Of a stretch of 64,000 bases of DNA, positions 28,377-33,334 are shown in pieces. The translations under genes and the position numbers were made by a program. The notes below the pieces were generated by a model. The model worked only from the letters and a program-made list of their open reading frames with translations, searched no databases and had not been told where the DNA came from. Each line of letters opens with the position of its first letter. The stretch's first letter is position 1. Origin of the DNA: Oxalobacter formigenes (GTDB taxonomy: Bacteria > Pseudomonadota > Gammaproteobacteria > Burkholderiales > Burkholderiaceae_D); NCBI RefSeq assembly GCF_002127965.1, contig NZ_CP018787.1, forward strand, positions 310,001-374,000, in the 5' to 3' direction.

Positions 28377-29000
28377 ATGGCAGAAGAAAAAAGCCAATTC
28401 GAGGATACGATAGGTTATACCCTGCACGGCAGCCGGTATCTGAACGTGACGAACCGTTGTGGGATTTTGCGGTGCGCATTTTGTCCGAAATTCAATGGTG
28501 CATGGTCTGTCAAGGAATACGATATGCGGCTTCACCATAATCCATCTGTCGAGGAACTGGTGGAGGCGGCCGGTAATCCTGCGGATTATAAAGAAATCGT
28601 TTTCTGCGGTATGGGTGAATCCACAATGCGTCTCGACGTCATGCTGGAAGTGGGCAGAAAGCTGAAGGAAAAGGGGGCGAAGTTGCGCTTAAATACCAAT
28701 GGAACAGGCAGCATGCTCAATGGTCGGGATATCGCTGCGGAACTGGTCGCTGTCATACCGACGCTTTCCGTTTCATTGAATGCGCAGGATGAAGAAACCT
28801 ACGATCGTCATTGCCGTCCAAAAAATGCCGGAACTTATGCGGCTGTGATTGATTTTATCAAAAGCGCGAAAAAGGCCGGTGGCGATGTAACGGTGACGGC
28901 TATCGACGGTTTACCGGGTGTCGACATTGCGAAATGTGAGGCGATTGCCAACGATCTGGGCGTCAAGTTCAGGCGCCGTGTTCTGGATGATCTGGTTTGA
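28377..29000 (+). CDS. TatD-associated-type radical SAM protein
   Basis: The 207-residue protein has a compact radical SAM core like the TatD-linked family: YLNVTNRCGILRC near residues 21-33, GMGEST (SAM-binding) near 78 and LNTNGTGS near 104. The cluster cysteines are C28, C33 and C36, a C-x4-C-x2-C pattern, instead of the usual C-x3-C-x2-C. The codons are clear and the frame is unbroken, so this is not a sequencing artefact visible at this level. The reaction is unknown. A GAGG ribosome site is 12 bases upstream of the ATG. Confidence 0.7.
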   Translation: MAEEKSQFEDTIGYTLHGSRYLNVTNRCGILRCAFCPKFNGAWSVKEYDMRLHHNPSVEELVEAAGNPADYKEIVFCGMGESTMRLDVMLEVGRKLKEKGAKLRLNTNGTGSMLNGRDIAAELVAVIPTLSVSLNAQDEETYDRHCRPKNAGTYAAVIDFIKSAKKAGGDVTVTAIDGLPGVDIAKCEAIANDLGVKFRRRVLDDLV

Positions 29001-30399: not shown

Positions 30400-32463
30400 A
30401 TGAAAGCGGAAGAAAGCGCCGTTATCGACAGGGATCCCGTATCGCCCACACCATCCGTATTGCCGCCCTTGCCGCAACGTATTATCAAACGTGACGGGGC
30501 CGATGTTCCTTTCGATGCCAACCGGATTACTGTCGCGCTGACCAAAGCCGGAAGAGCTACCGGAGATTTTGGTGAAGATGAAGCCCAGTTGCTCACGCAA
30601 AGAACGCTTAAGGTTTTGCGCCATCGGTTTGTCGGAGCACCCCCGACAGTTGAACAGGTTCAGGATGTCGTCGAGCAGATGCTTGTCGATGCCAATCACA
30701 CCAAGACTTTCCGTGCCTATGCCACGTATCGTGACCAGCGCCATCGTTTGCGTCAGGACAGAAGGACGCTGGTCGATGTCGCTTCTTCGGTTGAAGAATA
30801 TGTCGATCGTGCCGACTGGCGCGTACAGGCCAATGCCAATCAGGGATATTCGCTTGGTGGCCTGATTCTGAATGTTTCCGGCAAGGTAACAGCCAATTAC
30901 TGGCTGAGCCACGTTTACTCCCCTGAAATAGGACAGGCTCACCGGGATGCCGATTATCATATTCACGATCTGGACATGCTGTGCGGTTATTGTGCCGGGT
31001 GGTCTTTGAGACAGCTTCTGTATGAAGGCTTTAATGGCATTGCCGGTAAACCTGAAGCGGACCCTCCCAAACACTTCTCGACCGCGTTGGGCCAGATGGT
31101 CAATTTTCTGGGTACGCTTCAAAACGAATGGGCCGGTGCACAGGCATTCAGTTCCTTTGATACGTATCTGGCTCCTTATGTCAGAAATGACAAGCTCTCC
31201 TATGACAATGTTCGCCAGAGCATGCAGGAATTCATTTACAACCTGAATGTGCCATCACGCTGGGGAACGCAGACACCGTTTACCAACCTGACTTTCGACT
31301 GGGTTTGCCCGGAAGATTTGCGCGAACAGGTGCCGGTGATTGCCGGTCAGGAGATGCCGTTCAGGTATGGTGAATTGCAGGAAGAAATGGATATGTTGAA
31401 CCGTGCCTACATCGAGGTGATGACGGCAGGTGACCGGCGTGGCAGGGTATTCACTTTCCCGATCCCGACATACAACATCACGTCCGATTTTCCCTGGGAA
31501 TCTGAAAATGCCGAGCGCCTGTTTGCGATGACGGCGAAATACGGTTTGCCGTATTTCCAGAATTTTCTGAATTCGGACCTTTCACCGAATATGGTCCGTT
31601 CTATGTGCTGTCGTTTGCAGCTGGATTTGAGGGAACTGCTAAAACGCGGTAACGGCCTGTTCGGTTCAGCGGAACAGACTGGCTCGATTGGTGTGGTGAC
31701 GATCAATTGTGCGCGTCTCGGCTATCTGTTCAAAGGGAATGAAAAAGGACTTCTGGCCCGTCTGGATTATCTGGCGGACATGGCAAAGGACAGTCTGGAA
31801 ATCAAACGGAAAGTGGTGCAGCGTTTGATGGATGATGGGCTTTTCCCTTATACACGCCGTTATCTGGGCAAGCTGCGCAATCACTTTTCGACAATTGGCG
31901 TTAACGGTATCAATGAAATGGTCCGTAATTTCACCGATGACAAAGACGATATTACGACCGAGTTCGGTCATGCGCTGGCCTTGCGCCTGCTGGATCATTT
32001 GCGTGAACGGATGAAGGGATATCAGGAAGAAACGGGCAGTCTTTACAATCTGGAAGCCACACCGGCTGAAGGAACGACATACCGGTTCGCCCGAGAAGAC
32101 AAGAAACGGTATCCGGGTATTTTGCAGGCTGGTACAAAAGAGCATCCTTATTACACCAATTCTTCCCAGTTGCCTGTCGGTTATACCGATGATCCGTTTG
32201 AAGCCCTGAATTGTCAGGATGATTTGCAGATCCGTTATACCGGCGGTACGGTGCTTCACCTGTATATGCAGGAACAGATTTCGTCGCCGGAAGCCTGCAG
32301 GAAACTGGTGAAAACGGCATTGACGAATTATCGCCTGCCTTATCTGACAGTGACCCCAACGTTCTCGATTTGTCCGAAGCATGGTTATCTGGCAGGAGAA
32401 CACGAATTTTGTCCGGTTTGCGACGAAGAGCTTATGGCTGAAATGTCGAAAACCCCGCAATGA
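30400..32463 (+). CDS. nrdD: Anaerobic ribonucleoside-triphosphate reductase without its glycyl-radical end
   Basis: The 687-residue protein has an N-terminal ATP-cone (about residues 25-120, with IIKRDGADVPFDANRI), the NrdD barrel with active-site segments SMCCRLQ and VVTINCARLGYLF (near 406 and 435), and a C-terminal zinc motif CPKHGYL...CPVC. It stops at TGA 32461-32463 right after the zinc site. The conserved glycyl-radical segment (RVxGY) is missing from this product and is found in the next ORF, in the same frame, two codons after the stop. NrdD reduces NTPs to dNTPs without oxygen, with formate as usual reductant, which suits a formate-producing anaerobe. It is behind a cobalamin riboswitch and a weak Crp/Fnr-type site. 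Confidence 0.9.
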   Translation: MKAEESAVIDRDPVSPTPSVLPPLPQRIIKRDGADVPFDANRITVALTKAGRATGDFGEDEAQLLTQRTLKVLRHRFVGAPPTVEQVQDVVEQMLVDANHTKTFRAYATYRDQRHRLRQDRRTLVDVASSVEEYVDRADWRVQANANQGYSLGGLILNVSGKVTANYWLSHVYSPEIGQAHRDADYHIHDLDMLCGYCAGWSLRQLLYEGFNGIAGKPEADPPKHFSTALGQMVNFLGTLQNEWAGAQAFSSFDTYLAPYVRNDKLSYDNVRQSMQEFIYNLNVPSRWGTQTPFTNLTFDWVCPEDLREQVPVIAGQEMPFRYGELQEEMDMLNRAYIEVMTAGDRRGRVFTFPIPTYNITSDFPWESENAERLFAMTAKYGLPYFQNFLNSDLSPNMVRSMCCRLQLDLRELLKRGNGLFGSAEQTGSIGVVTINCARLGYLFKGNEKGLLARLDYLADMAKDSLEIKRKVVQRLMDDGLFPYTRRYLGKLRNHFSTIGVNGINEMVRNFTDDKDDITTEFGHALALRLLDHLRERMKGYQEETGSLYNLEATPAEGTTYRFAREDKKRYPGILQAGTKEHPYYTNSSQLPVGYTDDPFEALNCQDDLQIRYTGGTVLHLYMQEQISSPEACRKLVKTALTNYRLPYLTVTPTFSICPKHGYLAGEHEFCPVCDEELMAEMSKTPQ

Positions 32464-32484
32464 TTTTTAATGAAAGGAATGAAA

Positions 32485-32667
32485 ATGGATAAATCACAAT
32501 TGCCACAGGAAAAAAGACAGCGCTGTGAAGTCTGGACACGCGTAATGGGTTATCACAGACCAGTTTCCGAATTCAATCCGGGAAAGCAAAGCGAACATCA
32601 CGACCGTGTTCATTTTGCTGAAACCCCCGTTGCCGAGCTGGATAAGATTTGTGGTTGCGGTCGATAA
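32485..32667 (+). CDS. Separate glycyl-radical domain of the anaerobic reductase
   Basis: This 60-residue ORF carries the C-terminal NrdD signature: RCEVWTRVMGYHRPVSEFNPGKQ, where the Gly in RVMGY is the radical site. It ends with a Cys-x-Cys (ICGCGR). It has its own AAAGGA ribosome site 6 bases before the ATG at 32485 and lies in frame with nrdD, separated by one TGA and a few codons. It is therefore either a genuinely split subunit that joins NrdD in trans, like the spare-part protein GrcA for pyruvate formate-lyase, or part of a read-through product. The adjacent activase gene supports function. I treat it as a real gene. Confidence 0.8.
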   Translation: MDKSQLPQEKRQRCEVWTRVMGYHRPVSEFNPGKQSEHHDRVHFAETPVAELDKICGCGR

Positions 32668-33334
32668 TATCGATATTCACGTGGGGGGAATCACGCCGTT
32701 TACGACGATCGATTTCCCCGGCAGACTGGCAGCCGTTATTTTCTGTCAGGGTTGTCCCTGGCGTTGTCGTTACTGCCATAACCGGCATTTGCTCGAGTCA
32801 GGAGAAGCCGGACAGTATTCCTGGAACGATACCTTCCGATGGCTTGAAACCCGACGGGGGCTGCTTGATGGAGTGGTTTTCAGTGGTGGTGAGCCTTTGT
32901 TGCAAAAGCAATTGCCTGAAGCGATCGGGCAAATTCATCAAAACGGTTTTGAGGTTGCCTTGCATACTTCAGGAGTTTATCCGGAAAGATTGTCAAAGGT
33001 CCTTCCTTTGATTGAATGGGTCGGACTGGATATCAAGGCTCCTTTCGATGAGTATGAACTCATTACCGGCGGTGGTAATGGACAGCGTGCAAAAGACTCC
33101 CTTATCCGGATTCTGGATTCGGGAAAGGATTTTGAATTGCGCTGTACCGTCGATCCTCTTTTCTTCAATCCCGACAATGCCGGAAAAATGGCGAGACAAT
33201 TGATGGAGTTGGGTGTCAGCCATCTGGTTTTGCAACCATACCGGGATCTTGTCAACAGACGCACTCAGGCCGTCTCGAAAGAAATCATCGCATCCATAGA
33301 GCAATTTCTTCCGGTCGTGAAACAACGCCATTGA
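32651..33334 (+). CDS. nrdG: Anaerobic reductase-activating radical SAM enzyme
   Basis: From the GTG at 32651 the product has 227 residues. It begins with the NrdG2-type VGGITPFTTIDFPGRLAAVIFCQGCPWRCRYCHN, whose C-x3-C-x2-C binds the [4Fe-4S] cluster, and has GGEP at about residue 84. It uses SAM to generate the glycyl radical on its partner. A longer GTG start at 32606 is possible; both starts overlap the glycyl-domain ORF (by 17 or 62 bases), which implies coupled translation. Confidence 0.88.
   Translation: MVAVDNIDIHVGGITPFTTIDFPGRLAAVIFCQGCPWRCRYCHNRHLLESGEAGQYSWNDTFRWLETRRGLLDGVVFSGGEPLLQKQLPEAIGQIHQNGFEVALHTSGVYPERLSKVLPLIEWVGLDIKAPFDEYELITGGGNGQRAKDSLIRILDSGKDFELRCTVDPLFFNPDNAGKMARQLMELGVSHLVLQPYRDLVNRRTQAVSKEIIASIEQFLPVVKQRH

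Follow-up and report, generated by a model that had tools for sequence, protein, structure and literature searches.

A predicted two-gene class III ribonucleotide reductase in Oxalobacter formigenes and stand-alone copies of its glycyl radical subunit in viral contigs

How can an anaerobic ribonucleotide reductase be complete if its catalytic gene ends before the glycine that should carry the radical? This question is raised by an nrdD gene of the gut bacterium Oxalobacter formigenes located in a 64,000-nucleotide stretch of contig NZ_CP018787.1 (positions 310,001 to 374,000, forward strand), here called the window, in a genome that consists of one contig of 2.47 Mb. The encoded class III ribonucleotide reductase (RNR) core, NrdD, is of the PRK08270 type (NCBIfam NF006126, 1133 bits), and its closest named relative is the NrdD of Oxalobacter paraformigenes, with 95% identity. 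A first-pass annotation of the sequence had stated that the nrdD product ends after its zinc site without the RVxGY radical segment, that the next open reading frame (ORF), in the same frame and just after a TGA, supplies this segment with its own AAAGGA ribosome site, and that this small ORF overlaps the activase gene. It wavered between a two-piece reductase and a UGA read-through. All three of its observations hold, and the comparisons described below indicate, with a probability of about 0.9, that the bacterial operon is a true two-gene, two-subunit class III RNR.

The missing segment was located with the Pfam model NRDD, which has 562 positions. NrdD matches positions 2–533 (588 bits), and the small ORF matches positions 531–562 (37.2 bits against a cut-off of 26.2), which is its sole Pfam match at E-values up to 0.1. 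Because the two matches are complementary, the small ORF fills what NrdD is missing. The split point lies after the Cys3His site and within the glycyl radical domain, leaving the loop and the tail on the small protein. In the enzyme of P. copri, the radical loop of this domain is buried and comes after a zinc site (PMC11226230). The locus thus has an NRDD-type catalytic core with its cysteine motif, in which C403 and C404 are invariant in our NrdD alignment (A4), and a dedicated radical S-adenosylmethionine (SAM) activase adjoining it. The glycyl radical loop that defines a class III RNR is absent from the same chain and is found only when both chains are counted. As in other split RNRs, there are two adjacent, separately translated genes that are encoded as one in relatives.

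Is the small ORF a gene in its own right? Named loci, taken as the best 80 of 514 relatives, were compared. The split layout is present in 78 of them, one is fused (L048) and one runs off its contig end (L062). In each of the 78, the NrdD frame ends after the Cys3His site and RVMGY lies on its own ORF. Stop codons and frames were counted in these 78 and the window (79 in total, with L062 left out). Of the nrdD genes, 51 end with TGA, 16 with TAA and 12 with TAG. Relative to nrdD, 26 of the small ORFs are in frame 0, 23 in +1 and 30 in +2, so that the same-frame placement in the window is what chance predicts (26/79). The largest distance from stop to motif among these operons is 488 bases. A ribosome-site word stands at the ATG nearest the motif in 66 of 77 relatives, compared with 125 of 1189 internal NrdD ATGs (10.5%). 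With the position left free in the search pattern, the radical glycine was found in 79 of the 80 named loci, and the remaining locus is the one off the contig end. The ratio of nonsynonymous to synonymous substitutions (dN/dS) in the 30-codon core of the chromosomal small subunit has a median of 0.171 and a maximum of 1.11 (2177 usable pairs from 80 sequences, the window and the fused L048 included; only pairs with a proportion of synonymous differences, pS, of 0.15–0.7 were used).

These data bear directly on the read-through alternative, in which UGA, or a selenocysteine-like decoding of it, would give a fused NrdD and the small ORF would not be a separate gene. Such a reading agrees with the in-frame position of the window's small ORF after TGA, but 28 of the 79 stops are TAA or TAG, 53 of the 79 small ORFs lie in another frame, most have their own ribosome site, and in several relatives whose small ORF is in frame 0, two to six in-frame stops come before it; we therefore regard it as very improbable. 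Mixed stops, three frames, own ribosome sites and purifying selection together argue that the small ORF is a gene and not a read-through product. Of the two options left by the first pass, the two-piece reductase is favored by the sequence evidence. The survey it proposed, for a conserved stop and ribosome site in related genomes, found the junction and the ribosome site kept and the identity of the stop codon mixed. Sequencing error or a decaying pseudogene is less probable still, for although a stop between the halves of a known enzyme is how decay typically looks, 78 of the 80 named loci share the junction, the small piece is under purifying selection, and the Oxalobacter relatives with the same NrdD type agree.

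The layout is not confined to Oxalobacter. In the family, 92 of 294 genomes contain an NRDD match, and among the matches listed, most NrdD matches stop near model position 530, with the remainder in a second match nearby. In the class, the small domain was detected in 36 of 370 genomes; among 30 loci that were fetched, the window included, an NrdD core was present in the same stretch in 29 and an activase match in 25. One class-survey locus, L200, lacks a core nearby; a further match lies elsewhere in its genome. Among the named genomes with the split layout are Acidovorax, Thiobacillus and Magnetospirillum (Pseudomonadota) and relatives of Geobacter; others are metagenome-assembled genomes (MAGs) labelled Acidobacteria and Verrucomicrobia. 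It also occurs on plasmid pHG1 of Cupriavidus necator and on a plasmid of Sulfuricurvum (Campylobacterota). In these last two, the small coding sequence is annotated "nrdD, anaerobic ribonucleoside-triphosphate reductase", while some records of Paracoccus and C. metallidurans have no feature at the small gene, with the reservation that the gene table consulted is incomplete (the P. denitrificans record holds four features in total). Acidiphilium and Actinomyces contain one-piece relatives that share the CEVWTRVMGY signature. As a side observation, five Oxalobacter genomes (G006, G073, G093, G158 and G191) carry a one-piece NrdD of a different subtype, with 22–23% identity and the loop RITGYLVGTL (four read; L006 was not), and no match to the small subunit was found in these five.

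The history of the split was approached with a tree of 55 NrdD cores hand-picked from the loci, of which 33 were labelled split, meaning that the NrdD frame lacks the loop, and 22 fused. Near copies (L323 and L338), a cut locus (L339) and one on the same contig as L236 (L341) were omitted, and L002, L004, L010, L012 and L318 are likewise absent. L235 was changed by hand from split to fused because its motif ends in GF, and three viral rows (L312, L313 and the very divergent L337) were labelled split though no small gene could be found in their vicinity. On this tree the minimum number of label changes is three, against a mean of 17.6 for shuffled labels, and none of 500 shuffles was as low. 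A supported clade (99/90) unites 32 split and 4 fused rows. The first-pass annotation had named relatives with an uninterrupted frame as evidence against a split; these do exist as a minority (L048, Acidiphilium and Actinomyces), and since they are nested inside the split clade they are read as re-fusions. If the root lies outside, the simplest reading would be one old split followed by two later re-fusions, one in L048 and one in Acidiphilium/Actinomyces. Details are less sure because of the long branches of L337, L235 and L340 and the three viral rows without a nearby small gene.

In the mechanism that we propose, NrdD would supply the ATP-cone, the catalytic core with its cysteine motif and the Cys3His site, while the separately translated 60-residue subunit would supply the glycyl radical loop and the tail, docking at the place occupied by the C-terminus of one-piece NrdD. 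NrdG would install the radical on Gly22 of the small subunit, from which it would pass to the core, so that catalysis would proceed in trans. The most likely benefit would be that, after oxygen cleavage of the radical loop, only the small part needs replacing, and most likely the replacement could come from elsewhere, phages included. That the operon works in one organism is suggested by C. necator, as pHG1 carries the split layout and NrdDG of this bacterium (eutrophus H16) is stated, in a paper citing Siedow et al., to be essential for complete denitrification (PMC2864759). For strain CH34, that paper gives Rmet_5137 and Rmet_5139 as the genes and leaves 5138 unmentioned; Rmet_5138 may be the small gene.

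Several points weigh against this mechanism or lend it no support. The existence of fused relatives (Acidiphilium, Actinomyces and L048) means that the split is not required. AlphaFold models of read-through sequences, with 18 and then 70 aligned sequences, were poor, with a mean predicted local distance difference test score (pLDDT) of 62 and 74 and a predicted template modelling score (pTM) of 0.55 and 0.66; in the second run, residues 716–721, 723–725 and 727–755, which include the radical glycine, scored under 50. Additionally, no FNR-like site was found just upstream of nrdD, and such sites number 53 in the window, where 55 are expected by chance on average.

The second part of the question is whether the small subunit also occurs without its partner. 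An IMG/VR scan with alignment A1, whose patterns did not require the glycine, confirmed 65 viral loci, which form 57 groups at a DNA similarity of at least 1 kb. Another scan, with alignment A2, confirmed 176 of 186 stretches, of which 80 were kept, many of them contigs of the first scan; its pattern required MGY and it was therefore excluded from the glycine counts. An NrdD core was detected in the flanks of one of the 65 loci (L195), and an NrdG2 match in the flanks of none. In 58 of the 65, at least 600 bases are available upstream, more than the operon maximum of 488, so that a core placed as in the operons would have shown. When whole viral records were searched, the radical piece was found in 65 of 65 and a core in one, that of L195. 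The contig of L195, which also holds L314, encodes a split-type NrdD core and, some 2 kb further downstream, a small radical subunit of its own, preceded by a lysozyme-like gene (judged by eye).

Phage genes are found among the neighbors of the viral copies. Among 16 hand-picked ones, 9 match a named phage family (portal at L178; terminase at L180 and, more weakly, L163; head proteins at L168 and L133; tape measure at L187; DNA polymerase at L191; resolvase at L190; endolysin at L177) and 7 match nothing. In a wider scan of 52 loci (13 near copies or contig ends were skipped), 150 of 175 neighboring proteins were compared, limited to the + strand and at least 85 residues; 259 PHROGs match, each at most four proteins, and the commonest include terminase, portal, tape measure and endolysin. 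In annotated phage records, no convincing stand-alone copy was found; weak matches fall in ANMV-1 virus (an annotated reductase, E-value 1e-3 to 0.09) and in an unannotated fecal phage (0.03 to 0.07), and the viral evidence consequently rests on IMG/VR contigs and the MAG prophage described below.

A control scan with NrdD cores alone (A6) returned 30 viral loci, of which 20 are one-piece, 5 have a separate loop ORF (L314, L316, L327, L336 and L340), 4 have no loop that could be found and 1 is cut. The one-piece loops are of the YSR(I/V)(T/V)GYYR type, with F for Y in one, and the five separate loops all read RVMGY. The stand-alone viral copies, in which CEVWTRV is fixed by the search pattern and the glycine position was left free, read RVMGY in 64 cases and RVVGY in one (L197). 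They thus resemble the split clade, having the loop of the separate viral ORFs, unlike that of the one-piece enzymes.

By analogy with known systems, the viral copies have the look of a class III RNR spare part, and the spare-part idea put forward for the small subunit in the first pass appears to gain from the stand-alone copies: those in viral contigs, the one in a prophage and the others in Oxalobacter genomes. We give even odds to the proposal that in the split clade the radical subunit is exchangeable and mobile, and that phages of many lineages carry this subunit on its own and provide it to the NrdD core and NrdG of the host. The estimate was lowered to this level because no viral record tested was rated 90% complete; the records, of up to 108 kb, may be fragments, and a core could lie elsewhere in the phage genome. 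If the proposal is true, infected cells would keep or regain anaerobic deoxyribonucleotide (dNTP) synthesis, for example after oxygen damage, and class III RNR would be a second enzyme with a spare-part system, in this case spread by phages.

A neutral history is the best of the competing explanations, though a rather unlikely one: the split would be a relic, the small subunit would serve only its own NrdD, and viral copies would be host genes picked up without effect. The persistence of both fused and split forms fits this account, as does the fact that 29 of the 30 fetched class-survey copies share their stretch with an NrdD core. However, the viral copies look selected, with a median dN/dS of 0.18 (320 usable pairs among 63 sequences, under the same pS limits, with L196, which has an internal TGA, and the RVVGY copy L197 left out), and 40 of 58 have a ribosome site at their nearest ATG, compared with 12% of all ATGs, in a set that spans 57 DNA groups. 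It is improbable that the viral proteins act as inhibitors or decoys blocking the host reductase or activase; small phage proteins often inhibit host enzymes, but the radical glycine, which a blocker would not need, is kept in 65 of 65 loci, and the nearest phage precedent, T4 Y06I, restores its enzyme (PMC8683613).

Stand-alone copies were also found in bacterial genomes. The window copy is the sole copy of the small subunit in its genome, while 3 of 13 Oxalobacter genomes contain, besides the operon copy, five extra small genes with no NrdD core within the 3 kb fetched around each. Their contigs appear to come from MAGs, for which wrong binning is possible. In L111, the small gene is placed between an endolysin and an Rz-like spanin gene, on the same strand as tail sheath, tape-measure, head-closure and baseplate genes; on this gene content, the region is a contractile-tail prophage with the copy in its lysis cassette. 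The other four (L112, L113, L114 and L115) were seen by eye to lie beside iron alcohol dehydrogenase, citrate-lyase-like and lipoprotein genes, and they have AAAGGA-like ribosome sites.

How does this system compare with known ones? It shares with one-piece NrdD/NrdG the core, the ATP-cone, the presumed zinc site, the radical loop and the activase type, and differs from it in that the loop and tail are the product of a separate gene. In the case of pyruvate formate-lyase, YfiD (GrcA) and phage T4 Y06I substitute for the radical domain once oxygen has cleaved it; the authors regard these two as the only validated spare parts and consider that others may exist (PMC8683613). Like the protein described here, YfiD and Y06I are small, free-standing glycyl radical proteins with a phage version. 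Unlike them, it has an NrdD-type loop and, in Pfam, no match to the pyruvate formate-lyase radical domain, the operon has no radical loop other than the one it carries, so that it is not a back-up there, and its size is about half of the 14 kDa of YfiD. NrdJa/NrdJb, the split class II RNR of Pseudomonas, is likewise divided into two operon genes; its small part mediates disulfide exchange, while here the small part bears the radical glycine (PMC4520616). In six phage cases, an nrdD broken up by introns or homing endonucleases has been reported, and split RNR genes are ascribed to some organisms (PMC3653736). These phage genes are single interrupted genes with a core, whereas the radical piece described here forms a separate gene and also occurs coreless. 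A 2006 paper noted that the vs.6 ORF of T4-like phages has an nrdD-like glycyl radical domain and a possible role in nucleotide metabolism (PMC1524935).

In the open-licence literature, as far as it was available, neither a genomically split NrdD nor a radical subunit of NrdD standing alone was found to be described, and an earlier mention is possible. Full novelty is tempered by the reported split phage nrdD and split RNR genes, by the vs.6 suggestion and by the existing nrdD annotation of the small coding sequence. The PHROG family phrog_4132, of unknown function, matches 10 of 10 small proteins tested (E-values 8e-11 to 1.5e-3), which cover only the later part of its 179 model positions, and it would now have a testable function. 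The layout also explains NrdD genes that seemingly lack a radical glycine. Furthermore, it is a natural candidate system, present in denitrifiers amenable to laboratory work, with a radical subunit that can be mixed, labelled and swapped, so that activation and radical transfer in trans become testable.

The features of the locus are listed in Table 1.

Table 1. Positions of the features in the window (residue numbers where indicated).
Feature	Position	Strand	Remarks
nrdD, class III RNR core	30400..32463	+	687 aa, without glycyl radical loop
NrdD ATP-cone	residues 27-115	+	family match
NrdD SMCCRL motif	residues 401-406	+	cysteine motif, invariant in alignment A4
Cys3His presumed zinc site C658, H661, C671, C674	32371..32421	+	invariant in A4; metal binding presumed
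nrdD stop TGA	32461..32463	+	ORF reading
AAAGGA ribosome-binding site of small gene	32473..32478	+	fits start at 32485
Separate glycyl radical subunit	32485..32667	+	60 aa (65 aa from ATG at 32470)
Predicted radical glycine codon, Gly22 of 60-aa protein, RVMGY	32548..32550	+	motif
nrdG2-type radical SAM activase	32606..33334	+	TIGR02495, 183 bits; longest ORF

In addition to the two starts given in the table, the small ORF has an ATG at 32479. Because the family match of the activase begins at residue 26, its start is probably the later GTG at 32651, judged by eye, and not the start of the ORF.

Cysteines of the small protein were inspected as well. Cys14 (32524–32526) stands directly before EVWTRVMGY, as a cysteine does in all cores read (80 chromosomal, 63 viral), where the patterns used required it; it may be a metal or redox residue. 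The C-terminal CGC of the window's protein was considered as a thiol pair and rejected, as by eye it is not conserved in relatives. Eight stand-alone viral proteins (L138, L149, L154, L156, L170, L178, L179 and L193) have extra cysteines upstream of the loop, which perhaps form a metal site of their own, and four records have an NRDD match that begins already at position 513–522. Two viral records that carry the small radical subunit suggest the use of genetic code 25, in which TGA is read as glycine: L196 yields 11 ORFs of at least 100 residues under code 25 and none under code 11, and has a TGA at the expected later conserved glycine (NxGK), and L194 has long frames with code 25.

In the genome of the window, two class I/II RNR large-chain matches (PF02867; G000:C1:2438052–2439578 on the − strand and 1010289–1011767 on the + strand) indicate that NrdD is not its sole reductase. 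Upstream in the window, a 207-residue ORF (28377–29000, + strand) contains the cysteine cluster CGILRCAFC and appears by eye to be radical SAM-like.

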